Below, one piece after another: positions 16,206-61,889 of a stretch of DNA of 64,000 bases; position 1 is the first letter of the stretch, and the number at the start of each line of letters is the position of its first letter. Location: assembly GCA_012845835.1 (NCBI GenBank), contig JABAKD010000014.1, positions 7,279,074 to 7,343,073 of the forward strand, read 5' to 3'. The notes beneath the pieces are model-generated. The model did not search any database, had not been told where the DNA came from, and saw only the letters and a program-made list of their open reading frames with translations. This DNA comes from Undaria pinnatifida (taxonomy: Eukaryota > Sar > Phaeophyceae > Laminariales > Alariaceae). A program made the translations under genes and the position numbers.

Positions 16206-16283
16206 GTCTATTAGTGAAGGAGATGTATAGTATATATGTGAAGAAAAAAAACTTACATGAAAAAGAAAGAAACCAAATAGACA

Positions 16284-16289
16284 AATAAA
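16284..16289 (+). promoter_or_regulatory. Candidate poly(A) signal AATAAA, acidic-protein gene, unit A
   Basis: AATAAA 79 nt after the stop codon, in conserved sequence and at the same distance in B (37,903-37,908). Confidence 0.45.
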
Positions 16290-28354: not shown

Positions 28355-28612
28355 GTTGCTTTTCTTGTCTTTTCTTTTCTTCCCTTTCCTTTTTCGTTTC
28401 TCGCTTCCTTTATCTTTTCTCTCCTTTTACACACTTTTCTTTTCTTTGATTCTTTTTTTCCAATTGACTTGCGTTTGTCGTGCGTATGCGTAGTGATAGG
28501 TACTACGTGCAATATATACGTGGTAGTCTTTCTTGGGTGGCAAGCGGTATAAGTCGGTTTTTCCAGGCGCGAGCAGTGACTTGATTATGCGAGTTAATGT
28601 GAGATCAACAAC
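28355..28612 (-). repeat. Retroposon-like family member, internally deleted
   Basis: On the minus strand a (GTT)n start, then sequence encoding YRLPPKKDYHVY and YHYAYARQTQVNW, then a GA-rich tail. It lacks about 200 bp present in the copies at 50.2 and 60.2 kb. Host or element origin unknown. Confidence 0.5.
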
Positions 28613-33208: not shown

Positions 33209-33490
33209 ATGTGTTTGCTGTATTCGTCGGCATGCCGTTCAGTCCAGACTGCTGTGTGGTAGACGATCCGATCACTTGGCGCCGCAGCCCCCCGTGGCTT
33301 CTTTCGTTCTCGAGGTGGCATGCCTCTCTATAAGTACTACGTACACGTAGTGTTGGAAGCAATCCACAGCATGACGGCTGCAAACAAACGAGTTAGTAGC
33401 AGAGTCTGCACGAGCCCTTGCATCCATCGTCTATGAATCTGATCAATTGTTTGGCCCTTCCAACCTGCGACCCTCGTACCCATACCGCAG

Positions 33491-35121
33491 GCGCTGCTCG
33501 TACTCGGACGTATCCGACATCTCCAACGACGACTCGGACGACGAGAGCACCATCAGTCACGATTCTCACGACGAGAACGTCATCGGTGTTGACGGCGACA
33601 ACGAGAGCACCATCGGCGACGGCCACCATGCCGAGAGTATCATCAGCGACGACGAGTGCTACACTGTCGAAGCTGAGGATGTACGCTACACGGACGCATC
33701 CGACACTTCGAGCGACAACGACGACCACGAGAGCACCATCAGCGACGACTCCATCAACCATGAGTGTACCATCAGCGACGATGACTACGAGTCCAACGGC
33801 CATGATGATCTCGAGCCCGGCCACGCCTCCTTCGATGATGGCAGCAGTCGGGACGAGCGTGCGTCCGATATCTCTGGCGACTCGTCTTGCGTTGATGATC
33901 TTGGCGATGGTGGTGCTTCTGAAACCTCCACCGGGTCTTCTTGCGATGATGATGAGGGTTGGGAGGGTAGGGCTCCTGACATCTCCGCCGACTCTTGTTG
34001 CGACGATGGCAATGATGATCTTGACGAGTGCGCTTCCGACATCTCCTCCGACTCCTACGATGGCGATGATGAAGCTCTTGACGGTGATGATGGTGGTGTC
34101 TGCGGATTTTCTCGAGATGATGATGATGATGATGATGACAGCGACTTCGATGGCTCGAGCAACGTTTGCGAATCCGACTACTGCGACACCTCGAACGGCT
34201 TCGATGGCTCGAGCGACGTTTACGAACCCGACTACGACGACAACTCGAACGAGTTCGATTCCTCCAGCGACGTTGACGAAGTCGAGTACTACCATGTAAT
34301 CGACGACGCGAGCGATCTTGAAGAACCAAAATACACCAGCGCGGTTTCCTTCGAGTTCGTCGACCTCTCCTCCGCCACGGTCGAACTCGAGCCGGCCGGG
34401 CCTCCACCAGAGCTTACCCCGACCGAATGCCTCACCCACCTCCCGACCGCTGTTGGCCTCTGCCCGCCAAACAAGCCTGAGGTAGGCCTCAAGGTGTTCA
34501 AATGGGGGGCCAAAGCAATTAGCGGCGTGGTGATTGAGACCTATCTGGAGGGCGGCGATCCTTTCGAGGATGGAGGCATTATGCAGACTGCGGCTGCCCC
34601 CGCCATCGTTAAGCTCGCCAAGATCCGCAAGGAATACCAGGAGGACTTCGATGATGAGTGCATCTCGCTCGACCTCGCCATTGAGAACCTGTGCGAAGAG
34701 TTGGCTAGGGTGCCGTGGAGTGCTAAGACCGTGGAGGACCTTGGCAGCACGCCGCCAACACCGAGTGCTTGTGGCGTCGTGGAACTTGACAGCACGCCAT
34801 CGCCGTCAGCATCATCGTCCACACCGTCAGCATCAGCATCCACGCCGCCATCATCGGTGTCAGCATCAGCGGCGGTGTATCAGCAAGATACTGCATCGAC
34901 TTCAGCACGTGCACCCACGACCTCGCCAGCGAGCAGCTGTAGCGCCGCCGCGGAGGAGGAGGGAGAGAAGATGTCCGTCGAGGTTCCCTGCACTCCGGGC
35001 GCTGTGACGGAGGATGATGGCGGTGGCGGTGGCGGTGGCGGTGGCGGTGGCATGGACATGGTCTTCGGCATCCGTGACAGCTGTGCAGGGTTGGTGGTCG
35101 ACAAGCCATCGTGCCGAGCGG
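33491..35121 (+). CDS. Acidic Ser/Asp-rich protein, large central exon, unit B
   Basis: Near-identical to 11859-13480. Differences are amino-acid substitutions concentrated in the acidic part plus in-frame changes in the Asp run (one longer) and the Gly run (two longer). The segment from KVFKWGAKAISG to CEELARVPW is nearly unchanged, suggesting it is the constrained folded part. It ends CGAGCGG|GTGAGT, phase 1. Antisense ORFs over this exon arise because Asp codons read as Val/Ile on the other strand. Confidence 0.75.
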
Positions 35122-35986
35122 GTGAGTGATTATTAGCGGTGGGATGATTCTGGCTGAAGTGTGGTGGTGTTTGCGCGGTGTGTGTCGTAGCATTTTGACT
35201 CTTGAGTTTGAACATTTTGAACTAGTGTTGTTGCGCCTGGCTGTACATAGGTTAAATTGTTTTGCGGAATGTGAATTTTGCGTGCGTCAATTAGCGTGCG
35301 TTACATGAAAAACAATTTGGTACTCCGCAGATGTATTTTTCCTTGACGGGGGGGGTACTCTAGAATCAAGTGAAATAAATATCATTTTTTTTCCCTGAAC
35401 AGGGGCGGCACCCTAAAGCCGAGTGAAAATATCCAAAAAAGTGTTTTTTCCGGGGGTTACTTTATAACCATAGTAAAACATTGATCCAATAAAACGTCCT
35501 TTTTTTACTACACAAGATTATTCTGACCTTTCGTCGTGTAATCATCGTCCTGCATTTTTCCAATCAAATTATTACCTCTGGAGGTCTGGTGTGGTGTTTC
35601 GCTTTGTCTTTTTCTTTGTTGTGTTCACTGGCTTTAGTTTTGAACCTCTTGAATTAATTATACGCTTTAGTGCTGTACCCGTCCTAGGTCATGCTCATTG
35701 CCGCCGGTACATAGATGATGAAGTATTTCCCCAAGCGACATCGATATGGGTTTGATGTTTGGCGAGTACCGTGAACCGTGTACCTGGCACTTGATATGTT
35801 TTACTCCACAGTTGTTCCATTGCTGAATATATGATGGAAACTTCAGCAGTTTCCCTCCCTAGTTGATCTACCCTCCCACCACCCCCCTCCCCTCCCTCCT
35901 TTCTGATCCCCCCATCCCTGCCCTTCCCCCTCTCCTCCCCCCCCGCTTCCTGTCTCCCCCCTCCTCTCTTTATTCTTATTATTCAG
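35122..35986 (+). other. Intron of the acidic-protein gene, unit B
   Basis: GTGAGT…TTATTATTCAG, with a C-rich tract at about 35,865-35,970. Phase 1/1. Confidence 0.7.
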
Positions 35987-36085
35987 GTTCTGTGCGCGGT
36001 GATGTTGACCTTGATGACATGGACATCGTCGACCAGCAGCGTGGCCCCATGGGAATGTTTGAAGCATCGGTCGCCCAGGGAGAGG
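35987..36085 (+). CDS. Acidic-protein gene, 33-codon exon, unit B
   Basis: Counterpart of 14352-14468, shorter by 18 nt in the Asp-rich part. Keeps DIVDQQRGPMGMFEASVAQG and the phase 1 borders (GAGAGG|GTGAGT). Confidence 0.75.
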
Positions 36086-37126
36086 GTGAGTATTATGCAG
36101 CATTTCTTGTCTTTCATGCGTTGTATGTACAGCGCGATGAGTTCGTGTCCATTTTTAGCACAACCAAAAAGCGGTATTCGCGATAAGTGAAAGTAAGTGC
36201 GAGGGAAGAAATACTGCGGGGTACCTGGTACAATCGAGTCAGCCCTTCCTGGCCGCTGTAGCGAATGAGAAGTAACACACAGTCAATCTAGTGTAATATA
36301 TTAAAAGCGTACGAATAGACTATCTGTTCCGCCGGCCGGATTTGTTCTTTCTGTGCAGTAGCTGTATATGACAATCATTGTTGGACGGCCAGCACGACAA
36401 TACCATGCTATACTTTGATACTGCTAAAATCGATTACCACAGCAATATTCCGTCTTGTTCTGTAGTTTTTCTTTTGTACTTTTGATTTGGTCGAGACTGA
36501 TCCCCCCCCCCATTCCTCTCCAAAGCGGGGTATATTTCGCATGAGAAACGCTTGATCGACGTTAATATGTCGAATCGGAAAACGTCAGTGTGTGTGGCAC
36601 TGCTACATTTCTACATAATCAATGTTCTCACCCTCTCCACGTCTTGTCAAGCACGGATAGTCGATATCGTTATTATATTATTGATTTTGGTTTTCCCGTA
36701 TTTCCTTTTACAAGCTACCACACATTTTTTCTGTTTGTTACTGTATTGACCCCCCTCCCCTCTCTTTGGAACATGGCTAGCCAATATTCGCTTTCATTTT
36801 CTTGTATTCCGCTTTGGAGGCGAACAATTTTTCATACATAGTTCTCTCGTATTCTCGATTTCAAGCGAACCTTTATTTATATTTTCCGTGCCTTCCACCC
36901 CCCCCAAAAAAAACTGTTCGCGAACATGGGTAGTCGACGTCACTGCTATTTTTCTCGCATTATTTTTTTAATTGAACCCTTTTTCGTTTTGCTTACCGTT
37001 TCTAATCCCCTCATCCTCTTCCGCCCCCCTCCTCCTCCGCCCCCGCCCCCGTCTCCCCAGCTCTCCTTTGCCCCCTCCCTCCCTCTCCGTTCTTCTCGCC
37101 GTCCCTCTCTCTCCCCTTGAAAGCAG
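36086..37126 (+). other. Intron of the acidic-protein gene, unit B
   Basis: GTGAGT…CCCTTGAAAGCAG after a C-rich tract (about 37,020-37,120). No ORF supported. Confidence 0.7.
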
Positions 37127-37824
37127 GGCTGGCGTACGAGACATCCTTCCTCCCCACGGTATGCCCGGCCGAAGACTGCGACGACAACAGTTCCAACGCT
37201 GAGAAGAGCGAGACAGAAGAGGAGGAGGAGGAGCAGGAGGAACCTGTTATCGCCCGGTCTGTCACCTCCTCGTCGCAAAGGGGTGACTCCCAGGTTTTAT
37301 TGTCAAGGGTAACAGAAGTAGTAGAAGACGCCCCGGTCACATTGGTAGTTCCGCCTGTCAAAGTAACGCATTGTTCAAAAGATAGTTCCGAGAAGCGTTC
37401 CGAGAAAAATTGCGAGAAGAAAATGGAGAGCAAACGCGGGAAAAAATCCGAGAAATGCCTCGAGAAAAAATGCGAGATGCATCCGGAGAAGCGTTTCGAC
37501 AAAATATCTGACACAAATTCCGATAAAATTTCCACTTTCGATAAATATTCTGAAGAAAAACCCGAGAAAAATTCCGATAACAAATACAAGAAGCGTTCCG
37601 AAAAAAAATCAGAGAAAATACAAACAAAGCGTTTAGAGAAACATTCCAAGAGAAAACCCGATATGCGTTCCGAGAAGAGCTGTTTGGGAGTTGTAGATTA
37701 CGTAGCGCGGAGGACGCGAAGCAGCCCAGGAAGGCCTTTCGCCAACCGTACGGCCCATGTCAGCAGAGCTAAGAGCTTAAAGGTGAAAGCGGGAGAAGCA
37801 GAGCTCCGAGTTGGTATAGGGTAG
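37127..37824 (+). CDS. Acidic-protein gene, last exon with basic tail, unit B
   Basis: 232 codons including the stop; collinear with 15511-16205 with one extra codon in the Glu run. The SEK/CEKK repeats and the Arg-rich end (RRTRSSPGRPFANRT) are unchanged apart from a few substitutions. Confidence 0.75.
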
Positions 37825-37902
37825 ATCTATTAGTGAAGGAGATGTATAGTATATATGTGAAGAAAAAAAACTTACATGAAAAAGAAAGAAAACGAATAGA
37901 CA

Positions 37903-37908
37903 AATAAA
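37903..37908 (+). promoter_or_regulatory. Candidate poly(A) signal AATAAA, acidic-protein gene, unit B
   Basis: 79 nt after the stop codon, as in unit A. Confidence 0.45.
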
Positions 37909-38382
37909 AGGAAACCAAGCATAGAGAGGGTCCGTAGGCTTGCATGGTACTATCTGTGTAAACGTAAAAAAATGTAACTTTAAAAAAAGAGAGAGTCGGT
38001 AGATTTGCATAGCACTATTATACAAGGAGTGTGGTGGTGTTTCGTGCACAACGTTGTCTACAAAGGGCATCATGGGCGACATCAAGGTGAGACGAGGAAT
38101 TTGGGGGGCGTTTTACGTACATTGTCTATTGGTTGGTAGGGGTGCACTCGTACAGTAGTATACAAACAGGCATTGTTATAGGTAGGGGTCGATACAACCC
38201 CCTCCCCCCTGTGTACACGGGCTCCGAACCGTATCAACGCCCACTACCTCGTAGAAACCTCTCACTGTATTCCCCCTCTGGTGCATATAGATTCCCTCTT
38301 CCGGCCTCCGCCGACTATCTGATCCAGCGCACATGATTTCTGCGCTTTACGTATGGTATGTACCTGGTATATGTACAGCCAT

Positions 38383-38565
38383 GGTCCCGCGTTAGTGCGG
38401 TACTGTACCCTTTAGTGCGAGGTCCCAGTTTAGTGCGGTGAACATCGCGTGACACGACCTCGTCCTACAGAGTACTATGCTATGCCGCACTATACCGGGA
38501 TAGCTCGGGGTCCCAGTTTAGTGCGGGTATTGTCGTCTGGCAATGCACCGCACTATAGAGGGACC
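38383..38565. mobile_element. MITE, 183 bp, unit B copy
   Basis: Orthologous position to 16,764-16,946 with the same ends. Confidence 0.65.
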
Positions 38566-38817
38566 ACCACTACTGTACTACTGTATGTATGTATCCAAAT
38601 ATCAAGAATCGGCTATATATCGTGCATGCGGGGGGCCCCCATGATTCACATACAGGCATAACGAGGTCGATATCTGATTGGTACGGATCAGTCGAACAAT
38701 CGCTGCGGTCCCCTCCCATTTTTCTAGACTTGAAGCATAACAAACTCGGGGGAGATTCCGCAGTGATTGTCGGTCGGGGTCGGTGGGGAACCTGTACCGT
38801 ACGATAAACCTTGGGGG

Positions 38818-39480
38818 GGGGTACTTTATTGGGGAGTCATTTTGGCGCGGTTGTAGACGTTGCTGTGGTTTGGCTTTCATGTATACGGGGGGGGGAGGGG
38901 GGGTCGTAGACCGTAGCTGGGGGGGGGTAAGGTAGGGTAAGTTGTTTGTGGCTAGGTAGATACGATTGGCTATGAGAGCACGGACGCGTGTTTTCTTGGG
39001 GGGACCGGACGTGTAGGGAAAGCTTTTTGGTAGTTAGAGACGAATAGCATTTTCTACGGGGGGTCGGGTAGGAGTTTTTGAGCGTATGTACTATAGATAC
39101 AAACGAGATTTTTGGGGGGTAAGGTAGGGTGAGGTTTTCTTACGTACGTAACACGAGTGGTGGTATTTTTTAGGGGCTAAGGAAGGGTAAGTGTTTTGTT
39201 CGCAGGTAAATGCGAATGACAACTTTTCTATGAGAGCATGCACGCGTGTTTTCTTAGGGGGAAGGCGGGGTAAAGTAGGGCAATTTGTAAGTTGTTTTGT
39301 AGGAAGGTAGAGACGAATGGATATCATCGAATGGCATTTTTTCTATGAGAGTATGGACGAGTGTATTCTTGGGGGGGTGGGGGGGTAAAGTAGAGCAATT
39401 TGTTATTTATTTGTTTTGTAGGTAGGTAGAGACGAATGGATATCATCGCTAACGGAGGCACGGACGCGTGTCTTCTAGAG
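38818..39480. repeat. Degenerate minisatellite of roughly 110-bp units, unit B
   Basis: Modules TAGAGACGAATGGATATCAT and ATGAGAGCACGGACGCGTGT alternate with G runs. About 340 bp shorter than the array in A. Confidence 0.6.
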
Positions 39481-48400: not shown

Positions 48401-51400
48401 CGAGCTGCACCCTTAGCTTCATGTTCGCGTAGCCTCCAGGCACGATGGCGTTCATGGAAGGGAGAGAGTTGAACTCAATGGCGTTACGGCAGGCCCTGAA
48501 CACGGCGAGGTCCCCTTAGCGCAAGATAAAGGTTTCAGCGACGAGGTTTTGCGTGGGAGGGCGGGGGGGGGGGGGGGGGGGGGGGGGGGATGGCAGGGGA
48601 GGGGGCGGGGCGGGGAGATGCAGAGGAAGGAGGGGGCGTAGCAGCTTAATGGGGGGGGGGGGGATGGGATGGGAGAGGGGGGCGGGGAAAGGGGAGAGGG
48701 ATGCGAGCGATGCGCGAATACATTGAGGGCTTGGTTCGGGGCGCCATAAAGTTAACAAATTGGTGTATCCACTTTTACTGCACGGGTATTACTAAGTTAT
48801 TGCCTGGTAAGTATTACTACTAACAGCAGTATCCCCTTTGGGGCCCAACGACACAAATCAAGAAAAACAGAAACTTAGAGGGAGGGACAGGGCGATACGC
48901 GAAACCGCACCCGTGTTAACGCTGTTGCTGCCATTTCTGCCATCATAGCGATACATACCTGACGCAGGCCTTGGTGGCGTCTTGGCCGTGTTGGTCGTTG
49001 CCGAAGCCGACTTCTACGAACAGCACCTTCGACATGCCGCTGCCGCCGCCGCTGCCACCACCACCACCATCATGGCTAGAGCCGGCCTGACGTTACACCA
49101 ATACGGCAGTTGTATGATATCATATGCTACTGCTGCAGCATGATTAGCTCCTTTCGTAGGACTTGAGAGGGCTGCTTGAGGTAGGGGATAGGGGATGTGG
49201 TATACCTCGTCATATGCGGTAGCTCTTACGCAACACAACAGCAACAAGCAGCACGTACTATATACATTCGTAGAGCATTAATAGCACAGAACACGCCCTA
49301 CCACAACACTGACCACATTTGGTGGTGTTTCCAGGTGTTTTTCGTGTTTTGTTCTCCCCCCCCCCTCTGTGCTCCTTTTCCTTCCCTTCCATTTTTCCTT
49401 TATTCGCTCTCTATTTTGTTCTCCTTTCTTTCTTCCTCGAGAAGTCTGCTGTGCAGGGCTGTTTCTGTTTCGCCCTCAGACCCATGCCACTACGTCGTAC
49501 AGCAGTTGTCTTGTAGTTTGTGGCCGCAGAGCTTCCCGGATCATGCTTTCTCTCCCATCTTTCTTGTTTGGTGGAAATGACATATTACGGATTCACATGC
49601 CTGAAAGTCATGGAGGGAAGAAGAGCCATAGCCCCGCCTGTTTGGAGCAGCGCTGACTAGTAAAGGGATTGCAACCCTTAAGTACTGTGGTAGATCCGAG
49701 GTCCCGCCAGATGGACTTCGGATTGTGCTTTTATCATTTTATAAAAATATTTCAAGGACGTCAGCCGTGAGTTCGATTAATTTCGGGTCAATACTTATAT
49801 TTGCAAGCTGCGTTGTTGGTACTTGTAATATACTATGTGGGTGAGTTTTTTCCTAATGGGAGGGGTCATATTCCTTTTTAAAAAAAAACAAACACATACG
49901 ATATATATACATATTTTGTTATTCTCCACTATAATGGTTGGCGTTGGTACATGAAAAAAAAATTAAGGACGTCAGCCGTGAGTTCGACGAATTTCGGGTC
50001 AATACTCATCTTTGCGAGCTGCGTTTTTGGTACTTGTAATATACTATGTGGGTGAGTTTTTTTTTATATTAATATTTATTTTAAAACGGTCCTTATATTT
50101 ATGAATGTACTGGTAAAAACAGCAGAGAAGAGCAAGCGCACCACCAGCGAGGGGCGAGTACCGGCTCTTCGTGTCTTGTCTTTTTCTTTTCTTTTCTTTC
50201 CTTTTTCGTTTTTTTTTCTAATTCGCTCTCTTCCCTTTTCTTTCCTTTCCTTTACCTTCTTTTCTTTTCTTTGTTTCTTTTCTCCAATTGACTTGCGTCT
50301 GTCGTGCGTATGCGTAGTGATACATACTACGTGTAATATATACCGTGGCCGTCTTTCTTGGGTGGCAAGCAGTAACGTCGGTTTCTCCAGGCGTGAGTAA
50401 TGAGACGTATGCACCGGTATGGACCTGGCACATCGTAGATTGACTCCCGATTTCACTTTTATATGTTTCTGGTGGAGACATGAATTGCGTCAGCTGTGAT
50501 ACATGCGAGCACCACCTTGGGTTGTTTGTGTTTTTCCCTGGGGTATTCCTCAGCTCCTGAGTGACTGGAGCCTGTCCTGTGACCACGAACTTGAATATGC
50601 GAGTTAATGTGAGAACAGCAACAACAACAACAACCGGCATGCTCGAACCCGAAATAGAGCAAAGCCACGTGACAAGGCATAAGCAGCAGACGCAGCAACA
50701 ACGCAAAGGACACCGGGATGGAAGGGCCCTCACCATGACTGTCGCCGTCGTTGACATGTATGCTTTGTTTTTTCTCCACTATAATGGTTGGTGTTGGTAT
50801 TTTTACTTTAGGTGGGGAATTTTGAGCTAGATCTAACGTCATAGTCTAGTTATTTTATAAATTTATTACTGTAGTTTCCACTATACTGCTCTATCATATA
50901 GACAATATGGTAGGTGGTTTATTTTGTTTTTTCTCCGCTTTAATATCGGAAGGAGTACGAATATAGAGTATTACTAGTCATGTAACATGATAATATTAAT
51001 GCGGCATTCGAGAATAAAAGTCGGCTACTCCCCCCCCCCCCCAAAAAAAAAAGAAAAAGAAGAAGAAAAAAAACTCTGTGGGACACGAACCCACGGTTCC
51101 AAATTGATACGCTGTCACTCTAACAGTATATAAAAATATTTTCAGGACGTCAGCCGTGCGTTCGACGAATTTCGGGTCAATACTCACTTTTTCAAGCTGC
51201 TTGTTGGTACTTGTGGGTCAAGTTTTTCCTTAATGGGAGGGGTCCTATTCTTTTGTTGAAAAAATGTTTTTCTCCACTATAATGATTGGTGTTGGTATTT
51301 TTACTTTAGGTGGTGAATTTTGAACTAGATCTAACATAATCTATTTTGTAATACTATTTCTGTAGTTACCACTATACTGCTCTATCATATGTACGGTATT

Positions 51401-54400
51401 AATAGATGGTTTGCGGATGTATGGCTTGGTCAGGGTTGTTGGGGAATTGTGGTTAAGTGCGTAGGTAAGTTTTCGCTACCTGGGGGTGGTCTTATTTTGT
51501 TTTTTGCACTGTAATGGCGGGTTTTGGTAGCATAGTAGTGATGCACGAAGTGATGTAATAAATATCATGTAAAAGCCCCACCCTGAAAAAAAAACAAAAA
51601 AACTTCTGTGAGGCTCGAACCCACGTTCCCAAGTTGACACGCTGTCACCCTCACACTTTAACTACAGACACATTTACGCGTCAAGGCAAATTGTGTTTTT
51701 ATAAATATGTAAGAATGTCGGAACAATCTGGAGTTTGGCGGAGCGAACAGGACACATCGGAGAACCGGGTGGCATAGGGGGGGGTGGTTCCAGGGGGAGG
51801 ATTTGCGGGAAAATAGGAGGACCTCAACAGCAACAACGTAGCACAGCAGCAGCACAGCAGCAGCGAGTATCGGACACAACAACCGGTAGAGGAAGGAAGT
51901 AGCGCCCACGCAGCAGCGCAAGCAGCAGGAGTAGCAGTAGGGAGAAGACCGTCGGCAGGAGCACAGGGGTAGAGAGGCGGCACGGGGAGACACCAATCGC
52001 AATCTATCGGAGACGAATTAAGGCTGGGAGAGAGGTGTACGAACACATGTCATCGTCACAGGAACGTGAAGCAGGCTTCCAGGCGAAGATCAGAAAGCTG
52101 CGGAAGGAGCTGGACGAGACGGAGTGCATGAGGAAGGAAGGACTGGAGAGGAGGGAAAAAGCAAGGAGAGCGAAGGGGAGCGTCGACGACGTGCGGGAGA
52201 TACGAAAGCCGGGGACCAGACAGCAGGCTCCCAGAAGGAGGGTAACGGTGGGAACCAACTTCCTGAAGAACTGGGAAAGGAGAGAGACGAGGGTGAAAGT
52301 AGAAGGGCGGAAGAGAGGTGGAAAGCAATATTTGAGGGCGAGGTCGAAAAGGAGGTTGGTAGAAGGATGCGCGCGAGAGAAACGAGTGAGGACAAGACCG
52401 ACGAAATGGACGAACTTGCAAGTAACCCACAACAGCAGGAGCGGCACAAAGAGCCGAGGAGGCAAGATCGGCACGACCAGCCGGAGGAACGGAGAAACAT
52501 GGGCCACCTTCGCGAACGCAAGGGGGTTTCACATGACACGGACGCCGGGGAGGGTAGGGAAAGAACGAGACAAATTTTACTCTCAAAGAATGCCGCTGAA
52601 CGACGGATCGAAAGCCAAGAGGTGGGGAGATGGGAAGCAGGAGGCAGGGGCCCGCAAATAGAACCCACGAGAACGGCTACTGGAGGCAGATGAGACAGGA
52701 ACACGGGGAAGGGTGGGAAGGAAGGGGTGGAGGTCCGATTACAGAACCTACAGCCGAGAGCGGCTATTGGGGAGGTAGGAGGGGAGGACCGGAACAGGGA
52801 GGGTGGATACAAGAGGGGAAAGGGAAACGCTAGCACAGGGATAGGACAGCAGAGAAAGGCTGGTGGTTCAGTGACGAAAAGGGTAGAGGCGCACGGACGG
52901 GGCAACTGGCCGAAGACGGCTACTGGGGGACGACAAGAGGAAGGGTCAATGGGAGGCGAGGATGGGAGGACAAGGAGGCGGCACCGGGTGGGAAAGACGA
53001 GAAAGGTTTGGGGGCGAAGGGTGGAAGTAGGGAGAAAGGGGAGCGGACAGGGGCACAGGGCCCAGCAGTTACTTCAGGGAGCCGGAACCATCATCATGGG
53101 CGCAGTTGATGGACATGGGGATGGTCATGTGGGGGGTAATCAGGGCAGACGGGGGAGTACCGCCATGGGGTTCGGTGAAGGAACGGGCGATGTCTTTGCT
53201 GTGCAGTGGGCGGTTCTTTATGAACCGGAAAGGAGAAGGGGACCTGATGCGTTTTTCCGACCTGGACATGACCATGTATTCGAGGACAGAGAAGTCGGGG
53301 AAGCGCCGGAGTGAGGGGGGGGCAGCCTTGCCAGACAGGGTGGATGCTACTCTGGGTGTGATTCTGTACATGGCGAGGCTCGCGACGGACGTGCACACGA
53401 AGATGGGGCGGGAATCGTTGGGACGGGTGGAGAATCAATGGGGAAACCATTCCACAGCATAAAGGAAGGGGTAAAACATTTTTCCGTGACGAACAGGAGG
53501 GTGGTAGAGTCGGAGTACTTTCAGGATGAGTTCGTGACGCGGTTCAATATGGACCTAGCGGAGTTCGGGGAAGAGGTGCGGACGCAAGCGCCGAGGCTGA
53601 AGCGGAGGGGGAACACGTGGCCGACGGTGGAAGAGGCCGGGCCCCTACCAGTCCCGGAGTTTAAAGCAACGCAGGCGTGGCTGGAAGTGGCGCCGCTATA
53701 CATGAAAAAGGGCGGTGAGTGGAGGGCTGGGGAAGGGAGAAAGGGGGGGGGGAGGGGTACGAAGAGGGCAACCGGCGGGGGGAAGAGGGGCGGGGGGGGG
53801 AAGGGGTGTAGCAGGAAAACGCAAAGGTGAAGAAAGGAAGGAGGGGGGGGGAAGCAGGGAGTGCTACTTCTTCAAGAGCGGCAAGCCTTGCCCGTACATG
53901 GAAAAGTGGGGGGATTGCAAGTTCGAACACGGGGGCGAGAAGGGAGGGAAAGATGAGCGAATGGGGGGGGGGATGGGGTGAGAAGCGGGCAGCCCCGCGG
54001 AGGGAGGGGGGGGAGAAGAAGGGCAAGAAGGACGAATGAAGGTACGGGCCCTGCCAGAGCGCAGGGCCAGCCACGGACGAACGGGGACCGGGGGGCGAAT
54101 GCAAGCACAGAGAGGGCCACCGGGCGGACCAGAAAGGCTGGGAGACCAACATCACCGGGGGGCCGACACCGGGATCGGTCAGACCCATCAATTCAGGTGA
54201 AAAAAATAAGGGGCTCGAACGGGGGGAGGAGGTAGGGGTGGGGAACCAGAGAGGAACAGGAACAGAAGGGGGGAGAATAAGGAAAGGAAAGGGGGAGGCA
54301 ATAAGATATGAAGAGGATAAAGGAACACGGGGGGGGATAGGGCGCGCGAGCGGAAGGGAGGAAGAAGGGTACGGAAAAGGAATCGTACAGGAACAGGAAG

Positions 54401-57400
54401 GAGGAGCTAGTGGTATCGAGGCAGAAAGGCCGCGAGTAAGAAGTACCGAGCTGGGAAAAGGGGGGAACGACGGCGGCCAGGCCGCGAGCTCAAACAAACG
54501 GGGGGTGCGCGGCAAACGGGCCGTGAAAATGGGGGGGGGGGGTGTACGGCAACGAGACCGTTCACGACCCGGCCGGGGGGGAGCGCGGCAACGGGGCCGC
54601 GCAAAGAAATGGGGGGGGGGGTGTGCGGCAACGGGGCCGCACACACTCAGGTCGGGAAGGAACGCGGTGACGGGGCCGCGCAGAGCGACGGCGGCCAGGC
54701 CGCGGGTTTAAACAAATGGGGGGTGCGAGGCAAAGTGGCCACGCAAAGGGTTGGGGGGGGGGGGGTGCGGTAACGGGACCGTACACGACCCGGCCGGGGG
54801 GAAGCGCGGCAATGGGGCCGCGCAAATAAATGGGGTGTGTGTGTGCAGCAACAGGTCCGCACACGACGATCAGGCCGGGAGGGGCCGCGCAAAACGACGG
54901 CGGCCAGGCCGCGGGCTCAAACAAACGGGGGGTGCGAGGCACAGGGGCCGCGCAAAAAGGGGGGGGGGCTGTACGGCAACGAGATCGTACACGACCGGGC
55001 CGGGCGGGAGCGCGGCAATGGGACCGCGCAAAGAAATGGAGGGGCGGTGTGCGGCAACGGGGCAGCACACGATCAGGTCGGGAGGGAACGCGGCATCGGG
55101 GCCGTGCAGAGCGACGGCGGCCAGGCCGCGGGCTCGAACAAACGGGGGGTGCGCGACAAAGGGGTCGCGCAAAAGGGGGGGGGGGGTGTACGGCAACGAG
55201 ACCGTACACGACCCGGCCGGGGGGAAGCGCGGCAACGGGGCCGCGCAAAAAAATGGGGGGGGAGGGCGCGGCAACGGGGTCGCACACGTTCAGGCCGGGG
55301 GGGAACGCGGCAACGCGGCAACGGGGCCGCGAAAAGAAAGGGGGCGGGAGTGGGCGGCGATGGGGCCGTACATGACCAAGGGGGGGGGGAACGCGGCAAC
55401 GGGGCCGCGCGGGGAAAAGGGGGGGGGGGGGGGCGGCAACGCGGCCGTACAAAACCAGGCGGGGGGGGAACGCGGCGACGGGGCCGCGCAAATGAAAAGG
55501 GGGGGAGCGGGCGACAACGGGGCCGCACACGCTCAGAAACGGGGAGCTTTCGGTAACGGGTCCGGAGGAGTGGGGCGTTGAGAAGGAGCTACCCACGGGG
55601 GGGGGAGGACAGAGCGTAGCCACGGGGCTGCGCACGAGTTCAAGGGCGAGGAACGGGAGGCGGTCCTGAGTTGGAGGAGCGCAATGGGGCGCCTGGGGCA
55701 GACAGGGGAAGATGCAGACGAAAAGGATCGACTGCTAGGAGTCGTGGCTAGGTTGGGAGAAGAGATGCTACTAAGGAAAGGAGGGGACGTAGGGAAGGTG
55801 GTGTGGGCGTTAGGTCGAGAGCTGCTCGCACCACATATTGACGTAGAGCGCGTGAAGATTTTTTTTCGGGAAACGACACAAGGTCGACCAGTTCGCACTG
55901 CTGGAACAGATAGCGAGGGTAGGCGTGCCGGTGGATGTGGGCCCAGGAGGTAATCTCGAGCGGGAACTGGCATACGGGAACCATAGCAGCGCCAGGAAAC
56001 ACGTGGCCGACGTGTGGGAGAACGCAGTGGAAGACGTCAAGAAAGGGCGAGCGATCGTGATGCCGGTGAGAGTAGCGCGGAGCGTGCAAGGTTTGCGGAT
56101 AAATCCAGTGGGGGTGGTGGAAGAAAAAGGTAAGATGAGGATAGTCCATGATTCGACGTTCAGCAGCGAACCGGAGCTACCCGGGGGGGTGGGGGGGGGG
56201 GGCGGTTAACGAGACGACGTATTGGGACCAGATTCCAGAATGCCACCTGGCGGGCGTGATGGGCCAAATTATCAAGAGGGTGTTGGGGCTGCGGGACAAT
56301 TTCGGGACAGGTAAAAGGATTCTGATACAGAGGATGGACGTGAAGAGCGTCTTTCGCCAGGTGGGAGTGGATCCAGCAGGGGCAGCAAACTTCGGGTACG
56401 TGCTGGGAGGGTATTTGTTTATCGACTTGCGGTTGCAGTTCGGATGGAGGGGGAGCCCAGGGTGGTGGGGAGTGATCGCCAGCGTGATCCAGCAGGCACA
56501 GGGGCAGACGACAAAGGCATCGGCGACGATCCTAGCCGCCGGCAAGGAGGCCACAGCGCACGTTAAAGTCGCGGGGCATACGGGAGTAGCGGTAGAGCCG
56601 CTGCCGCGGGGCTGCATGGTCGAGGAGGTGGAAGGGGAAGGGGAGGAGGACCCCGCGTGGGTAGTTTCTCCATGGATGATGCCGTTTCGGTGAAAGTGCA
56701 GTGGGAAGCAGGCGAGGGGGGGTGCCTAGTGCTGTCGCAGGCACTGGCGTCGAATCACCACCAGGCGATGGGAGAAAGGGCAGTGGGAGAGGGGCCTCTG
56801 CTGTCACATAAGAAGGTGACGGATTGGGCCCCCCGGCAGGAGGTACTGGGTTTTGACTTAGACACGGAGAGAATGACGATATCCTTACCGGGAAGGAAGA
56901 TCAATGAGCTACGGGAGATGCTCCAGGAGTGGCCCGAGGAGAGGAGCAAGGCAACTGTACGGGAGGTCCTCGTGCTGGCAGGCAAACTGCACCACGTGGC
57001 GTACGTGATCAGACCAGGGCGGTATTTCGTGCGGCGGCTTCTGCAGCTGAGCAAGCTGCATATGAGTGGGCAGGAGAAAAGGGGGGGGGGGGGGGCCTGG
57101 GGAAAGGACAGGAAGAAGGCAGAGGAAGGGAGGGTGTTATATCTGACGGAAGAGTTCATGGCGGACGTGGAGTGGTGGAGATGGTGCATGACGGAGGGCT
57201 TGGCCGCACAAGCTAAGGAGTTGGCGGCACTGTTCTTCCGATTCGTGAAACAGCCCCATAAAAGGACCTGGTTTTCCGACGCATCATTCGAGGCAGTAGC
57301 GGGGCTATGCCTGGAGACGGGGGTGTATTGGAGGTACAACCTGACCGAAGAGAGAGCGAGAACGGTCAGGAGCGGGAGAAGGGACCACGTGAACAGGCTG

Positions 57401-60400
57401 ACCATCAATGTTCTGGAGCTGCTCGGGATGGTGATGACGGCATTCGTGATGATCGTGATCAGGAAGGATAGGCCGGGGAGGGTGGGAGAGCCAGTACTGA
57501 TGAGGGGGAATACCTCGTCAGCGTTTCAGTTGGTGAGGAATTGCAAGGGGGGGAAAGGGGAAGTGAGATCGGGAGGGATGATGAGAATTTTGGGGGTGTT
57601 GGAGCAGATAGGGGGGTGGTGCTTCCAGGCGAAGCACGTGCGGGGGGTGGAGATCGGGTTAGCAGACGGGATAACAGGTGGAAAGAAGACGAAATCCAAT
57701 CGAGGCTGACCAAAGAATGCCCCGCCGTCCCGTGGCAGGCCCAGGAGCTTGGACCGGAAGGACGGGGATGTGTTCGGTGATTTTGCACGAGGCTATAGAC
57801 TTGGGCGGGTTGCGAAGTCGACTAGAAATACTCATGTGCAAGGTTGGAGAAAGTGGGTGAGTTGGAGGATGATGAGGGTGAAAGGGAACTGGCTAGGGAA
57901 GGAACTAGGCGAGTGGGAGCTGGTGGAGGAGCTGACAGAGTTTATGGCCCCCTGCTGCGCGAAAAGGAAGAATAAGGAGGCGACCGTGGCAGGGAAGTTG
58001 ATGGCGGTTGACTATTATCACGAGCAGTGGGGGGGGCTGTCTCTGCCGCTGCAGCACTTCAGGATTCAGGCAGTGAAGAAAGGAATCAGGAGGGCGCATG
58101 CGGAGGCGGGGAACCAGGCACGGGTAAGGAGGCCGCTGACGTGGGAGATGATCAGAGTGATGGAGGAGAGTACCGGCGCGTGGGGGGTAGGGGGGAGGAT
58201 CGTGTGGATCGGGCTGGCACTGACGTACTGCTGCTGAGGGCCTCGGAACTGTTCGCGGAGGAAGGAGGAAAGGTGCAAGAGGTTTACTGCTTGAGAAGGG
58301 GAGATGTGGCCTTCTTCGAGAAAGGGGTGCAGCTAGGACCGGGAAGGAGGGAAGCCGCGGATACGGTGGAGATCCGTTCCAAGGGGGAAAAGGGAGACCA
58401 GGGGAGAAAAAGCGCGGTAGCCGTGAGAACAAAAGGACCCGGGGGGGTCAGGGGAGGGCCGGTAGGGAACGTAGTGGACCTGATGGTAGAGCTAGTATGC
58501 TACTATGGGAAGACGGTTCCGGGGGAGAACGCCCCGTTGATGACATACAGGAGCGGGGGAAGATGGAAGGTGTGAACGAAAGGGCAAGCGACGTTTTGCT
58601 TAAGGAGCGGGCTGGAGAGAGTGGGGAGGAAATGGAAGGAGCAAGGGAGGGGGGCAGTGGGAGAGCTGGTTCCAGGGGAATTCGCGCTGCACTCGGGAAG
58701 GATAGGGGGAGCGACAAGGCTGGCGGAGATGGGAGCACAGCCGTGGGTGATCCAGAGAGAAGGAAGGTGCGCGTCGCAGGCATTCATGGGGTACGTGAGA
58801 TCCAATATGGAAGACCCCCTTTGGGTGTCAAGGATATTGGTAGGGAGGTCAGGAGCACCGAGCAGACAGCCGGGGCAAGGGACGAGATGGGGGGGGGGCG
58901 AGGGTAGAATAGGGTAGGAGCGGGCGTAGAACGCGGCTTCCGAATGGGCTTCTGGTTGTTGAGGTTATCTGTCGAAGAAGGGGGCAGGTCAGCCGCGTAC
59001 AATAGCCGGGAGAGGGAGCGGGGGAGGGGGAGGGGGGCAAGGAAAACTGGACGAGGGTGAGCCGTCAGTTTCCACGCCCCCCCACCCTCCCCCCGCGGGG
59101 AACACCATGATACTAATGAACACGCATATTTTCGTGAAGAGGAGACCGAAATGTAAGAATGTCGGAACAGTCTGGAGTTTGGCGGAACGAAGAGGAAATG
59201 TCGGAGAACCGGGTAGCATAGGGGGGGGTGGTTCCAGGGGGAGGAATGGTGGGAAAATTGGAGTACCTCAGCAGCAACAACGTAGCACAGCAGCAGCACA
59301 GCAGCAGCGAGTATCGGACACAACAACCGGTAGAGGAAGAAGAAGTAGCGCCCACGCAGCAGCGACAGCAGCAGCAGTAGCAGTAGGGAGAAGACCGTCG
59401 GCAGGAGCATAGGGGTAGAGAGGCGGCACGGGGAGACACCAATCGCAATCTCAAAGACCTATTTCCGCTCTCTCATTATTTCGGTTTAATTCTAGTACGA
59501 AATGTTTTTGTTTACAATAGTAGCTGATCGCAATAAATATTAATCTGCACATGGTGCCATTTATATTACTGAGTCAGGTCATCATGCAAAAATTGCGAAG
59601 TTATCTCCCGGCATGGGGAATACATTATTTTATCACCTGTTAACTACACTGGCTATTTGCACTAGCTGAATGTGAGAACAACAACAACTAGGTTACTGAG
59701 TCAGGTCATATGAAGAGTCGATGAATTGGAAGTACACTCATCATGGAAAGTCGACGAGTTGTGAGCATGGATTGTGAGCCCATGAGTTGTGAGCATGACT
59801 AGTGAGCATCATCAGCATGTTGTGGTATACACATGGTACTTCCCTTGTAGAGGCAGTGCACAGCAGCAGTGTGTATCCAGTCCATCCCGTCCTTCCCGAC
59901 TTGTTATGGTCGCTCCAATATGAATGCTTGTATCTCATCTATGACATGCCATTCTCGTTTTTCTTGGACCGGACTTCTTTTCAGTTATAATATTCACTCG
60001 TATATTAAATTCCTTCACCACCAAATGTTCACGTGTATATTTGCCGCAGATGAAGGAAGTCTTTCAGTTTTTCAGCACGTAACCAGCTTAGCAATGCACT
60101 TGAACATGTCACTAAGGCTCCCTGGTTCCCCTCAGTCACTACCGGACGGTACTGTAGCACAAAAGGCTGAGCTCAAAGCCTTGATTCCGCACACAACGAA
60201 GGTTGAAGCACGGAACCAATACCGACTGAATGTTGTTGTTGTTGTTGTTACATTGACTCGCATAATCAAGTCCGTGGTCACAGGACAGGCTCCAGTCACT
60301 CTGGAGCTGAGGAATACCCCAGAGGAAAACACAAACAACCCAAGGTGGTACTCGCATATATCACAGCTGACGCAATTCATGCCTCCACCAGAAACATACC

Positions 60401-61889
60401 TGGTGTAAAATCCGGAGTCAGTCTACGATGTGCAAGGTCCATACCGGTGCATATGTCTCATTACTCACGCCTGGAGAATCCGACTATACCGCTTGCCACC
60501 CAAGAAAGACTACCACGTACATACTACACGTAGTATCTATCACTACGCATACGCACGACACGCGAAGTCAATTGGAGAAAAGAAACAAAGAAAAGAAAAG
60601 AAGATATAGGGAAGGAAAGAATAGAGAAGAAAGTGATAAAAGTGCGTTGCTTATTTTTTGTGTAGTTGATTTTCCATGATCTTGATCAGTGATGAGAAGT
60701 ACCGGGGTACCGGTAATTACCGGTAACGATGTAGGGGGGTACGTAACATGAAAAAATGGGGTAATTTTCACCTGGGTACCCCCCTGTTCCCCGCGGGCCC
60801 CCCTCTTTTTGGCGGGCAGCTGATTTCAAAATTTTCAAGTTCACAGCAGACAGCAGACCACACGACTCAAACCACAGAAGCACACCACACACAGCAACAA
60901 GACAAACATCATGGCACTGGTAATTACCGGTAGGTAAACACAAAAGGTGATTTGCGGTAAATTACCGGTAGGTAAAGTCCTTTTTCTGCGGTACTTCCCA
61001 TCACTGATCTTGATTGAAGTACCTGTGTACGAAACGAAAGTACAGAAAGATTGGTTCATCCTTTTCACGGCTATATTTCATGTAGACGTACTAGACAGTA
61101 AGAGGCAGATAAGTTGGGAGACTATTCATAATGTTACTTATTATTGAATTTTGCAAGCGTGAGGTTGGTTCTGTTGATAAGTAGATGCATTTAACAATCT
61201 TGAGGTTGGTTCTGTCTTTTTTTTTTTTTCTTCATCCTCCGACCGGCGGATGGGGAAAAATAAAGCTTTAGCTCACCACACTTCCACGTATTTTCATACG
61301 CGTCGTGTGTCGATTTAACTCTGTAGTTGGTTCTGGCGAGAAATAAATAAGTTAGTGTAGAGTTTCATCTTAGATTTTGGTAATGCATTATTTTGTGTAT
61401 CATTTATTGCAGTACGAGTCGTAGTGGATGTATACCATACGCACCTTGGCCACGGACTATTAATAGCGGCCAGCGCTGCCTGCGAATCTCAGTGGTGATG
61501 GTGTGTCTCTGACAGCCAGTTGGTACAAGTATGGTGTAGGTCTACAGTAGCATCGTCCCTCTCTAGGAGGCACGGGCACGGAAACGGATACTGGTCGTAG
61601 TGCCGGATGTAGATGGGTGGAAAAAACACACAGATTCTGAACACACCCTACGAGTACTACATACCTGGTGCAGCAGTACTTCGACTGCTGCACCGTAACA
61701 CTTGGTGCATGTATTTGTGTTGCTCACCTCGAGCGCTTTTGGTCGGCCAGCTGTCGCCATCCTTGGTGCTTTGCAGTGTCTGCTGAATCCAGGACTCGTT
61801 GGTATGGGGGGTACCCGGAAGCTGTCAACAGCAGTGGTTGTCACCGAGACAGCGACAATCAGCACCGACAATACTTCAGGCAGCCTCAT
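45427..61889 (-). CDS. Lin0512-family protein with candidate plastid presequence, unit C (intact copy, five exons)
   Basis: Joined exons on the minus strand: 61889-61728, 49086-48959, 48495-48384, 47440-47323, 45479-45427; 190 codons plus stop. All introns are GT-AG and all phases agree (0, 2, 0, 1). The last four exons carry the whole Lin0512 family domain (PF09585/TIGR02058): LFVEVGFGNDQHGQDATKA, CRNAIEFNS, GGYANMKLRVQLAVPVPE, VFPYGQLLPVEF, GGMRASSGMELPELG and the terminal VTVGY. Function of the family is not known. Exon 1 encodes a signal-peptide-like start (short basic end, hydrophobic stretch, then VDS|FRVPP), the pattern of secondary-plastid targeting. Linking it to exon 2 rests on phase fit and on conserved splice signals in A and C; intron 1 would be 12.6 kb and contains a retrotransposon. 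If exon 1 is not used, translation could start at the ATG at 49035 inside exon 2, giving about 119 residues, a normal family length. Confidence 0.75.
45499..45540. repeat. G-rich block (intron 4 tract), unit C, contracted
   Basis: Only about 40 bp of G runs remain, compared with about 420 bp in A and B; the nearby sequence 45,575-45,805 is an insertion private to C. Confidence 0.6.
45575..45805. other. Insertion private to unit C, intron 4
   Basis: About 230 bp with no match in A or B at this place. Contains hairpin-prone GC-rich sequence (CGCGTACGCCAACCGCGAAGCG). No ORF; ends not resolved, could be a SINE or MITE. Confidence 0.4.
47323..47440 (-). CDS. Exon 4 of the unit C Lin0512-family gene
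   Basis: 118 nt with EDVDVEAIKRVFPYG and GGMRASSGMELPELG. Acceptor TTCCACAG, donor GGGAG|GTGACG, phase 1. Confidence 0.85.
47735..48030. repeat. Intronic degenerate direct repeat, unit C
   Basis: Counterpart of 4,185-4,500 with two GACGA(G/A)TTTGG(T/C)ACCG modules and ATAACCGG variants, in intron 3. Confidence 0.6.
48384..48495 (-). CDS. Exon 3 of the unit C Lin0512-family gene
   Basis: 112 nt; 37 full codons containing CRNAIEFNSLPS and MKLRVQLAVPVPE. Acceptor GTTCAG, donor GAG|GTGCGC. This is the exon shortened by 25 nt in A and deprived of its acceptor in B. Confidence 0.85.
48545..48700. repeat. G-rich block (C-rich intron 2 tract), unit C
   Basis: Includes a run of about 27 G near 48,563-48,589; close to the exon 3 acceptor on the gene's strand. 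Confidence 0.7.
48959..49086 (-). CDS. Exon 2 of the unit C Lin0512-family gene
   Basis: Acceptor GTCAG at 49,087, donor GTATGT at 48,958. A Gly/Ser linker (SSHDGGGGGSGGGSG) leads to MSKVLFVEVGFGNDQHGQD, the first conserved family block. The poly-Ala reading on the opposite strand is an artefact of the Gly/Ser codons. Confidence 0.8.
49738..49848 (+). repeat. Dispersed repeat family (GGACGTCAGCC), copy C1
   Basis: Begins at the left edge of the large insertion in intron 1. Near-identical to 39,946-40,053. Confidence 0.75.
49961..50058 (+). repeat. Dispersed repeat family (GGACGTCAGCC), copy C2
   Basis: Second copy about 220 bp after C1, same orientation. Confidence 0.75.
50150..50625 (-). 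repeat. Retroposon-like family member with residual ORF
   Basis: Minus strand: (GTT)n-like start, then an open segment with VTGQAPVTQELRNTP, NTNNPRWCSHVSQLTQF and YHYAYARQTQVNW, ending in a GA-rich tail near 50,150. Its partners are 60,226-60,612 (plus strand) and 28,355-28,612. Shared peptide reading suggests a once-coding element; no family recognised. Confidence 0.5.
50768..50900 (+). repeat. Companion repeat (CTCCACTATAATGGTTGG), copy 1
   Basis: TCTCCACTATAATGGTTGGT through ACTATACTGCTCTATCATAT; repeated at 51,273-51,390 and in part at 49,922. Confidence 0.65.
51068..51118 (-). repeat. tRNA-like fragment 1
   Basis: Minus strand contains GGTTCGTGTCCCAC-like B-box sequence following GGAACCGTG. 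Only the 3' half of a tRNA can be folded; no acceptor stem partner. Likely part of a SINE-type or other repeat, not a tRNA gene. Confidence 0.4.
51128..51224 (+). repeat. Dispersed repeat family (GGACGTCAGCC), copy C3
   Basis: Third copy, more diverged; lies between the two tRNA-like fragments. Confidence 0.7.
51273..51390 (+). repeat. Companion repeat (CTCCACTATAATGATTGG), copy 2
   Basis: Follows dispersed repeat C3 with the same spacing that follows C1, indicating a larger repeat unit of at least 250 bp. Confidence 0.65.
51606..51655 (-). repeat. tRNA-like fragment 2
   Basis: Minus strand GTGGGTTCGAGCCTCAC, a near-consensus B box/T arm, about 80% identical over 50 bp to fragment 1. No complete cloverleaf. 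Confidence 0.4.
51707..52005 (+). repeat. Left terminal direct repeat of the DIRS-like element
   Basis: 299 bp from ATGTAAGAATGTCGGAACA to CACCAATCGCAATCT, with CAG-rich middle. About 93% identical to 59151-59451 in the same orientation. Confidence 0.85.
52047..53981 (+). pseudogene. Gag-like region of the DIRS-like element, frame-shifted
   Basis: Opens with ATG at 52047 and a charged coiled-coil segment (KIRKLRKELDETECMRKEGL), which continues in another frame after about 52,170. A second block spans 53,106-53,830 in two frames and includes GVILYMARLATDVHTKMGRE and EYFQDEFVTRFNMDLAEFGE. A third, near 53,860-53,935, holds CYFFKSGKPCPYMEKWGDC followed by KFEH, a CCCH-like zinc knuckle. The order resembles the nucleocapsid end of DIRS Gag proteins. 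Frameshifts fall at or near G runs. No catalytic domain is expected. Confidence 0.6.
54480..55560. repeat. Tandem array of GC-rich hairpins within the DIRS-like element
   Basis: At least 15 short inverted repeats share the loop region GGCAACGGGGCC or GGCAACGAGACC, with stems that vary together: GCGCGGC/GCCGCGC, GTGCGGC/GCCGCAC, GTACGG/CCGTAC. They are arranged in a higher-order period of about 205-220 bp, seen from the recurrence of TGTACGGCAACGAGACC near 54,544, 54,764 (variant), 54,969 and 55,187. All six frames are partly open because of composition, producing meaningless Gly/Ala/Arg- and Pro-rich ORFs. Lies between Gag and RT. Confidence 0.75.
55684..57709 (+). pseudogene. Reverse transcriptase/RNase H of the DIRS-like element, frame-shifted
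   Basis: RT N-terminal block GLRINPVGVVEEKGKMRIVH (about 56,085-56,150); motif A MDVKSVFRQVGVDP (about 56,334); LQFGWRGSPGWWG; catalytic motif C FSMDDAVSVKV (56,666 onward), reached only after a shift from the preceding frame. The thumb follows (VLGFDLDTERM, VREVLVLAGKLHHVAY). RNase H: TWFSDASFEAVAG with the first Asp (about 57,270), LELLGM with Glu, and HVRGVEIGLADGITG with the last Asp (about 57,650). Shifts occur at the G run 56,183-56,203 and between about 56,600 and 56,660. Confidence 0.8.
57749..58917 (+). pseudogene. Tyrosine recombinase of the DIRS-like element, frame-shifted and with a stop
   Basis: SAM-like N-terminal part (STRNTHVQGWRKWVSW), then a shift near 58,230. Box I Arg lies in LLRASELFAEEGG (about 58,230-58,270). 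Box II HSGRIGGATRLAEMG (58,690 onward) supplies the HxxR pair. The nucleophile is the Tyr of AFMGYVRSN (58,792-58,794). A TGA at 58,573-58,575 separates box I from box II. The recombinase replaces the integrase in DIRS elements. Confidence 0.8.
59151..59451 (+). repeat. Right terminal direct repeat of the DIRS-like element
   Basis: 301 bp, direct copy of 51707-52005, with roughly 20 differences. I found no second short repeat pair around it, which a split-direct-repeat (PAT-type) layout would need. Confidence 0.85.
59452..60225. other. Right part of the compound insertion, no gene
   Basis: AT-richer DNA with two copies of TACTGAGTCAGGTCAT (about 59,567 and 59,694) and AACAACAACAAC. Not matched in units A or B. 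No ORF supported. Confidence 0.5.
60226..60612 (+). repeat. Retroposon-like family member, plus strand
   Basis: (TTG)n start, then VTGQAPVTLELRNTPEENT and NNPRWYSHISQLTQF in frame to a stop at 60,408, later TYYTRS-like sequence and a GA-rich tail. Partner of 50,150-50,625 and 28,355-28,612. Confidence 0.5.
60687..61006. mobile_element. hAT-type MITE, 320 bp, with perfect 8-bp target duplication
   Basis: Target duplication ATCTTGAT at 60,679-60,686 and 61,007-61,014. Inverted ends CAGTGATGAGAAGTACCG and CAGTGATGGGAAGTACCG; CAGTGATGGG is a classic hAT terminus. Subterminal copies of TAATTACCGGTA lie at both sides. No coding capacity. Confidence 0.9.
61217..61319 (-). mobile_element. Short poly(A)-tailed retrosequence, copy 2
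   Basis: Reverse of 20,596-20,687: poly-T (13) at left, GTTAAATCGACAC boundary at right. GTTGGTTCTG occurs on both sides and may be the target duplication, although the same word also occurs nearby. Confidence 0.65.
61728..61889 (-). CDS. Candidate exon 1 (presequence) of the unit C Lin0512-family gene
   Basis: 54 codons from ATG at 61889. Starts MRLPEVLSVLIVAVSV, a hydrophobic leader; the likely cleavage site is before FRVPP, followed by a Pro/Arg-rich part (CKAPRMATAGRP). Ends AAAGCGCTCGAG-like sequence with donor GTGAGC, phase 0. Frame, leader and donor are kept in all three units, with length differences of one or two codons only. A plastid location is an inference. Confidence 0.65.

Follow-up and report, generated by a model that had tools for sequence, protein, structure and literature searches.

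A retrotransposon of Undaria pinnatifida that, to judge from its repeats and gene order, is Ngaro-like carries at its gag-pol junction a minisatellite of palindromic units of about 39 nt, for which we tentatively propose a role as a structured cis RNA signal. The array lies in a dead copy of the element within the window (the whole 64,000-nucleotide stretch of DNA analysed here); in some young copies it is part of an open reading frame that continues into reverse transcriptase (RT), the arms of its stems covary, and the arrays of gene-poor derivatives are longer still. On the proposed reading, the element RNA would use the array region as a structured and redundant cis signal, most plausibly as a multivalent site bound by Gag, whose sequence includes a CCCH-like pattern, or by the RT complex; copies that lack intact genes would gain from extra hairpins when mobilised in trans, and the redundancy would account for the near-neutral drift of single units. 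Folding of the RNA in vivo, its recognition by Gag or RT and the benefit to gene-poor copies are steps that we infer.

Layout of the Hairpin Array

The array occupies positions 54466-55536 of the window and is highly organised; it holds 24-27 units (about 27) of roughly 39 nt apiece, each consisting of a G-tract and a stem of 7-9 bp capped by an AACGGG-like loop. TRF analysis of the window array recovered a period of 217 bp (4.0 copies, 81% match) together with shorter periods of 78/79 bp and 39 bp, and by eye each higher-order repeat is composed of six unit types. The 16-mer GCGGCAACGGGGCCGC occurs 21 times at no more than three mismatches, against 0.66 occurrences expected from dinucleotide shuffles; the GC content of the window is near 0.5. 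The GC-rich hairpin array with a constant loop that had originally been predicted is therefore real, by its TRF periods and 16-mer enrichment at 54466-55536, and the predicted higher-order period of about 215 bp corresponds to the 217 bp found here. The stems, which were said to change on both sides together, do so in the paired variants GCGCGGC/GCCGCGC, GTGTGCGGC/GCCGCACAC, GTGTACGGC/GCCGTACAC and GCGCGAC/GTCGCGC, and pairing between the arms of one unit exceeds that after permutation, as detailed below.

Loose hairpin counts are not specific to the array: its 1.1 kb contain 15 hairpins where shuffled sequence contains 5.6, and an RT stretch likewise gave 15; in a loose hexaloop scan the density there did not exceed that of the window as a whole (35 in 1.9 kb vs. 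2244 in 64 kb). As these counts do not discriminate, permutation and energy tests were relied on. Rfam 15 gave 0 matches at gathering score across the window. A search of viral contigs with the 16-mer core returned 58 stretches with one match each, which were taken as chance.

The Host Element

The element that contains the array is probably a tyrosine-recombinase retrotransposon; it begins at 51707, reaches at least 59451 and has the following features:

51707-52005, forward strand: A1, the left-hand terminal member of the split direct repeats, 93.7% identical to 59151-59451
52010-54039, forward strand: gag region with approximate start, its reading frame disrupted in the window copy; CCCH-like Cys/His pattern within 53862-53975
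54037-54068, forward strand: gag TGA stop (54037-54039) and 8-bp stem-loop (54047-54068), the stem-loop beginning 7 nt past the stop
54466-55319, forward strand: hairpin array, four higher-order repeats of about 217 bp with six units each, one unit partly deleted near 54880
55312-55536, forward strand: hairpin array, additional two-unit repeats (78-79 bp)
55614-55633, forward strand: single extra diverged hairpin unit, GCGTAGC / CACGGG / GCTGCGC, beyond the end originally predicted for the array
55640-57709, forward strand: RT and RNase H region, start approximate, split into separate frames in the window copy
57749-58860, forward strand: tyrosine recombinase region with HSGRIGGAT ... GYVR, disrupted in the window copy, end approximate
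58947-59150, forward strand: B1 internal repeat, start approximate, assigned by eye in the window; copy L093 has the same sequence on both sides of A2
59151-59451, forward strand: right terminal direct repeat, A2, about 300 bp, 93.7% alike to A1

The window copy is dead, with frames broken in gag, RT and recombinase, and the B2 repeat was found neither in it nor in copy L094. Young copies are more complete: A1 is present in L089, and the right end of L093, downstream of the recombinase, reads B1-A2-B2. In L089, open frames encode gag (675 aa), the array together with RT (875 aa, with the motif FMDD), RNase H (284 aa) and the recombinase (416 aa); the RNase H frame (5560-6414) overlaps the recombinase frame (6306-7556), which leaves no space for a methyltransferase, and a Pfam search of the element gave no methyltransferase match.

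RT and RNase H were assigned by eye from FMDD and RNase H-like residues; sequence searches of Pfam and PDB with this region returned nothing meaningful. The recombinase was assigned from HSGRIGGAT ... GYVR; PF00589 (Phage_integrase) matched its catalytic end only at E=0.21, below the cutoff, and a PDB sequence search with this protein matched no recombinase. As protein queries, the RT/RNase H piece and the recombinase found no relative in viral contigs, nor did RT in prokaryote genomes. The 3' part of gag (53862-53975) has the pattern C-X8-C-X8-C-X3-H, which is CCCH-like; Pfam zf-CCCH_DUS3L reached only E=0.094 here, below the cutoff.

Ngaro elements are defined, in the available sections of two papers, by split direct repeats and the lack of a methyltransferase (PMC4157794, PMC8547959), and are exemplified by the Cafeteria Ngaro types (PMC8547959) and by 15 families in Ectocarpus (PMC12477816, available sections). 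The element resembles them in its arrangement A1-[ORFs]-B1A2B2, in the order of gag and its putative RT, RNase H and recombinase, and in having no methyltransferase; split direct repeats of the form B1-A2-B2 are common to Ngaro and PAT elements, and a methyltransferase domain, lacking here, is a feature of PAT as of DIRS1-like elements. RT, RNase H and a tyrosine recombinase, for which candidate regions exist here, are also found in DIRS1-like elements; the termini of those elements are inverted repeats, and they carry a methyltransferase as well as internal complementary regions, as described in the available part of PMC3266345. Unlike them, the element described here has split direct repeats at its termini and no space for a methyltransferase; a search for inverted terminal repeats of the DIRS1-like kind found direct repeats as the element termini. 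The label DIRS-like, which was part of the original prediction, is therefore wrong: because of its split direct repeats, its order of gag, RT-RNase H and recombinase and the lack of room for a methyltransferase, the element, as far as its sequence tells, is Ngaro-like and not DIRS1-like. The word "hairpin" has 0 occurrences in the main texts of PMC8547959 and PMC12477816, and no such array is mentioned in these main texts.

Copies in the Genome

A search of the genome (511,146,479 bases in 68 contigs) with the array as query gave 53 matched rows from the best 40 scored of 178 candidate places; among these best 40, at least 37 array matches, the window's own included, have at least 80% identity and span more than 800 bases. 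Since all copies were retrieved by the array itself, the sample covers array-bearing copies; 30 of the 40 scored copies, one of them the window copy, were aligned. The array measures 1,096-1,125 bp in 21 full-length matches, which are the best-scoring ones and hence selected for length, and 20 of these 21 are 83-86% identical to the window array. For 14 of the 30 copies the nearest neighbour is at least 99.3% identical, and two of these 14 have terminal repeats with identities of 99.7% and 100% (terminal-repeat identity was measured in 3 of 5 further copies; for the remaining two, the right repeat lay outside the retrieved sequence). The presence of the array in intact relatives, which had been proposed as a check, is seen in young, nearly intact copies, all of them found by the array query.

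Stem Pairing and Predicted Fold

The pairing of each unit's own arms was compared with that after permutation of whole arms, with D-type units (triloop CAG) excluded. In the window copy, 152 of 189 cells are Watson-Crick paired, against 130.2 (sd 3.8) after permutation, and 0 of 2000 permutations reach 152. Expressed as z values, which overstate the number of independent events because array units share ancestry, the own 3' arm pairing in the first array amounts to 5.7 in the window, 6.0 in L068, 5.0 in L083 and 4.4 in L081; the value for the window is 5.4 with duplicate stems removed, distinct stems only give 4.2-5.4 in three copies (7.2 pooled), and permutation within linker classes gives 3.5-5.2 in five copies. 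The excess comes from pairs 1-4 (z 3.8) and pairs 5-6 (z 5.6), pair 7 alone falling short of significance, and about five compensated pair positions are recognisable by eye.

Structure scores against shuffles were more uneven. Across 24 window units, 77.3% of cells are paired, against 72.8 in shuffles (0/500 reach the observed value), and the covariation score is also higher (0/500); the counts of pairs with both partners altered (4 vs. 2.7, 88/500) and of pair types (8 vs. 8.1, 340/500) are not unusual. Over the 30 copies, scored for 27 units of which two are of D type, 65 cells are changed on both sides, against 29.9 in shuffles (0/500); the corresponding counts are 22 vs. 17.8 for pairs changed on both sides (23/500) and 91 vs. 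94.1 for pair types (464/500).

Predicted folding on the coding strand, given as z from 40 dinucleotide shuffles each, is -5.8 and -9.3 for two parts of the window array, -8.8 for L068 and -10.6 for L103; arrays on the opposite strand give -8.6, -9.7 and -3.7, and the values for gag and RT are +0.2 and +0.5. Checked against shuffled sequence, the array is thus far more stable, in the window as in a young copy, with gag and RT near zero.

Gene-Poor Derivatives

Three derivatives (L090-L092) combine the left terminal repeat with a 5' region of about 1.4 kb that matches nothing in the full copy; an array with about 540 nt of pol and a second array come next, followed by fragments of RNase H and gag and most of the recombinase. 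L090 is visible to both ends, its terminal repeats being 91.5% alike. A query with the second array gave 117 matched rows at 38 or more places (best 38 scored of 186 candidates). The junctions of the RNase H, gag and recombinase fragments are identical in 11 of 11 loci checked (L101-L111), which suggests a single founder of the gene-poor group.

Arrays in these derivatives, whose presence is partly a matter of ascertainment as gene-poor copies were found via array queries, are longer than those of full copies; in L112, units extend over about 6 kb, with 157 motif hits against 17-29 in shuffled sequence of equal composition. Ten of the 12 loci from the second-array search (all except L100, the query itself, and L101) were analysed for spacing and pairing. 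Unit spacings of 30-50 nt leave remainders of 0, 1 and 2 modulo 3 in 245, 296 and 68 cases; they are free of codon register, and the arrays in the gene-poor loci are therefore non-coding. Own-arm pairing across the ten loci gives z 4.0-6.1, and 4.8 for distinct stems seen at least three times. The second array alone covaries weakly, with permutation z of 1.7, 2.8 and 1.7, values of 1.15 and -0.1 within class, and 2.5 for states common to at least 7 of 10 copies.

Selection on the Fold and Expansion Without Function

From the paired changes, the original prediction had suggested that the fold is or was selected. The covarying arms and the extreme fold speak for this suggestion, and the event counts on the tree of copies, which equal those of a mispaired control, speak against it. 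Matched arms alone are no proof of a selected fold, because double transitions always yield a Watson-Crick pair and template switching mends stems; in the available text of PMC8794818, template switching can both create and mend stems in RNA genes.

On the tree of 30 copies (Fitch reconstruction, 25 units kept), events on internal branches preserve pairing in 19 cases, break it in 25 and restore it in 18, and the mispaired-arm control on the same tree gives matching counts of 19.0, 28.5 and 19.9. Double changes on internal branches number 8, against 0.4 in the control; five of them result in a paired and three in an unpaired state, and in some, whole units seem to have been exchanged. Pairing-preserving and other changes stand at 11:11 on the young branch and at 50:131 among private changes, a marginal difference (p = 0.047). 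The ratio of fixed to private changes, compared over 27 units in 15 young and 13 old copies, with L061 and L063 excluded, shows no difference between core and linker (p = 0.22). Among units, the core differs half as much as the linkers (0.23-0.25 vs. 0.45-0.49), and private differences among copies are more nearly equal for core and linker (0.0127 vs. 0.0188 and 0.0452 vs. 0.0471), in a comparison that is somewhat biased as units were located by their core. Private changes away from paired states comprise 24 A-C and 20 G-U; shared states lean to G-U by 34 to 10, solely via pair 5, without which the count is 13 to 9.

These results bear on an account in which the array has no function, and which we hold to be nearly as plausible as the cis signal. 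A palindromic repeat would grow by slippage, and template switching inside the hairpin, at DNA replication or at reverse transcription, would keep its arms matched; coding copies would tolerate only frame-preserving lengths, and gene-poor copies would expand freely. Such an expansion is consistent with the agreement between the tree events and the mispaired control, with the three of eight internal double changes that end unpaired, and with the common fixed/private ratio of core and linker, and it accounts for near-neutral drift in every zone. It also agrees with the unconstrained amino acids of the array (see below), with unit spacing off the codon register and with the 157 motif hits in one gene-poor copy, and a template-switch mechanism is described for RNA genes (PMC8794818, available text). 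It is opposed by the steady length of the array in the full-length matches, themselves selected for length, and by the marginal excess of pairing-preserving changes on the young branch.

The structured cis region is favoured over function-free expansion by a hair, because it explains the extreme fold and the existence of derivatives that consist so largely of array. A further elaboration, that the in-pol-frame array is a multivalent signal for Gag or RT for which gene-poor parasites compete by amplifying it to more than 100 hairpins, or about 6 kb, appears unlikely as a whole. If the array works in cis, the element constitutes a natural experiment, in which full copies hold the array in frame and derivatives hold hairpins over kilobases, and the packaging and trans-mobilisation of tyrosine-recombinase retrotransposons would become testable. 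If it is functionless, it is a clean case of a tandem repeat whose stems covary although no selection on folding is detectable, and a warning for RNA-structure inference.

Comparison with Other Hairpin Elements

Gene-poor copies of non-autonomous LTR elements of the LARD/TRIM type retain their termini and internal cis RNA regions, and retroviral packaging signals are built of multiple hairpins; unlike these, the internal region described here is a long tandem hairpin array with a putative cis role. GC-rich covarying hairpins also form the mitochondrial double-hairpin elements and the yeast GC clusters, which are small dispersed units in mitochondrial DNA, whereas the present array is tandem and belongs to one nuclear retrotransposon family. 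Hairpins maintained by template switching, as presented in the available text of PMC8794818, are similar in the matched changes on both sides of their stems; they occur in RNA genes, in contrast to a tandem array in a retrotransposon. Titles and abstract openings in the mainly open-access literature searched on DIRS, Ngaro, hairpin elements and packaging signals contain no comparable array.

Reading Frame and Encoded Residues

The position between Gag and RT that was originally assigned to the array holds, with the correction that in young copies the array sits inside the RT open frame. In two of the 30 copies (L068 and L071) a single frame crosses the array and RT without a stop as far as the retrieved sequence goes, and in L077 the frame that is open through the array reaches partway into RT. 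Unit spacing is divisible by three in 28 of 29 steps in L068 and in 21 of 30 in the window copy; in the derivatives L081 and L083 this applies to 12 of 23 and 12 of 22 steps.

Selection on residues was assessed from nonsynonymous and synonymous changes (N/S) in 3 young and 5 old copies. On the young-copy branch, N/S is 30/37 for gag and 14/37 for RT, against 250/77 (p = 6e-7) and 253/123 (p = 1e-7) among private changes; for the array it is 75/35 against 230/94 (p = 0.63), without purifying selection on residues. The frame of the array is thus preserved and its residues, unlike those of gag and RT, are free. The codons of the palindromes are atypical for the element: GGC accounts for 28% of Gly codons in the array and for 8-13% in gag and RT, and GCC for 56% of Ala codons, against 12-14%.

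It is therefore improbable that the array matters as protein, that is, as a 13-residue repeat (about xGNGAAxxxxGG) in Gag-Pol or at the Pol N-terminus, with the hairpins as a by-product; such a repeat might be a low-complexity stretch that is flexible or binds nucleic acid. The frame that is open through array and RT and the three-fold spacing in L068 would fit such a role, but the array residues lack the purifying selection seen in gag and RT, the stem codons deviate from element usage, and the codon register is lost in gene-poor copies. A coding function of the residues was set aside as the main account on the N/S values of the array.

The first long G-run of the array (L061-L079) comprises up to 18 bases and varies in length among near-identical copies. 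These length differences accompany different frames that are open through the array, and may represent real slippage or assembly error.

The Stem-Loop at the gag Stop

Frameshift and readthrough signals generally need no more than one or two structures. That the array itself is a translational signal of this kind between gag and pol is very improbable: its place at the gag-pol junction and the association of variable G-runs with different open frames would agree with such a role, but the G-run differences are possibly assembly errors, and a better-placed structure exists in the separate stem-loop that follows the gag TGA after 7 nt. The end of gag was located in 20 of the 30 copies; TGA is present in all 20, and all 8 pairs of the stem-loop are intact in 18. 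Past the stop, 15 of the 20 copies have no further stop in the gag frame for 453 nt or more, which is weak evidence as the stretch is G-rich and stop-poor; the other two frames are open for 192 and 108 nt in young copies. The folding z of the 70 nt at the gag stop is only -0.6. From its position and preservation, we suggest this stem-loop as a candidate readthrough signal, and it is a better candidate than the array for a translational signal.

Other Repeats in the Window

Elsewhere within the window, no match of the retrotransposon was found. A pair of 408-bp inverted repeats (50223-50629 and 60231-60636, 89% alike) flanks the element, with partial copies near 28363-28624. As candidate ends of the element these repeats were dropped, the element's own termini being direct repeats; they are probably a dispersed repeat. 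The window also contains a segmental duplication (9781-17454 and 31413-39079) with an offset of about 21.6 kb and 93.7% identity over 7.7 kb, of which an additional, more diverged copy extends from about 61428 onward.
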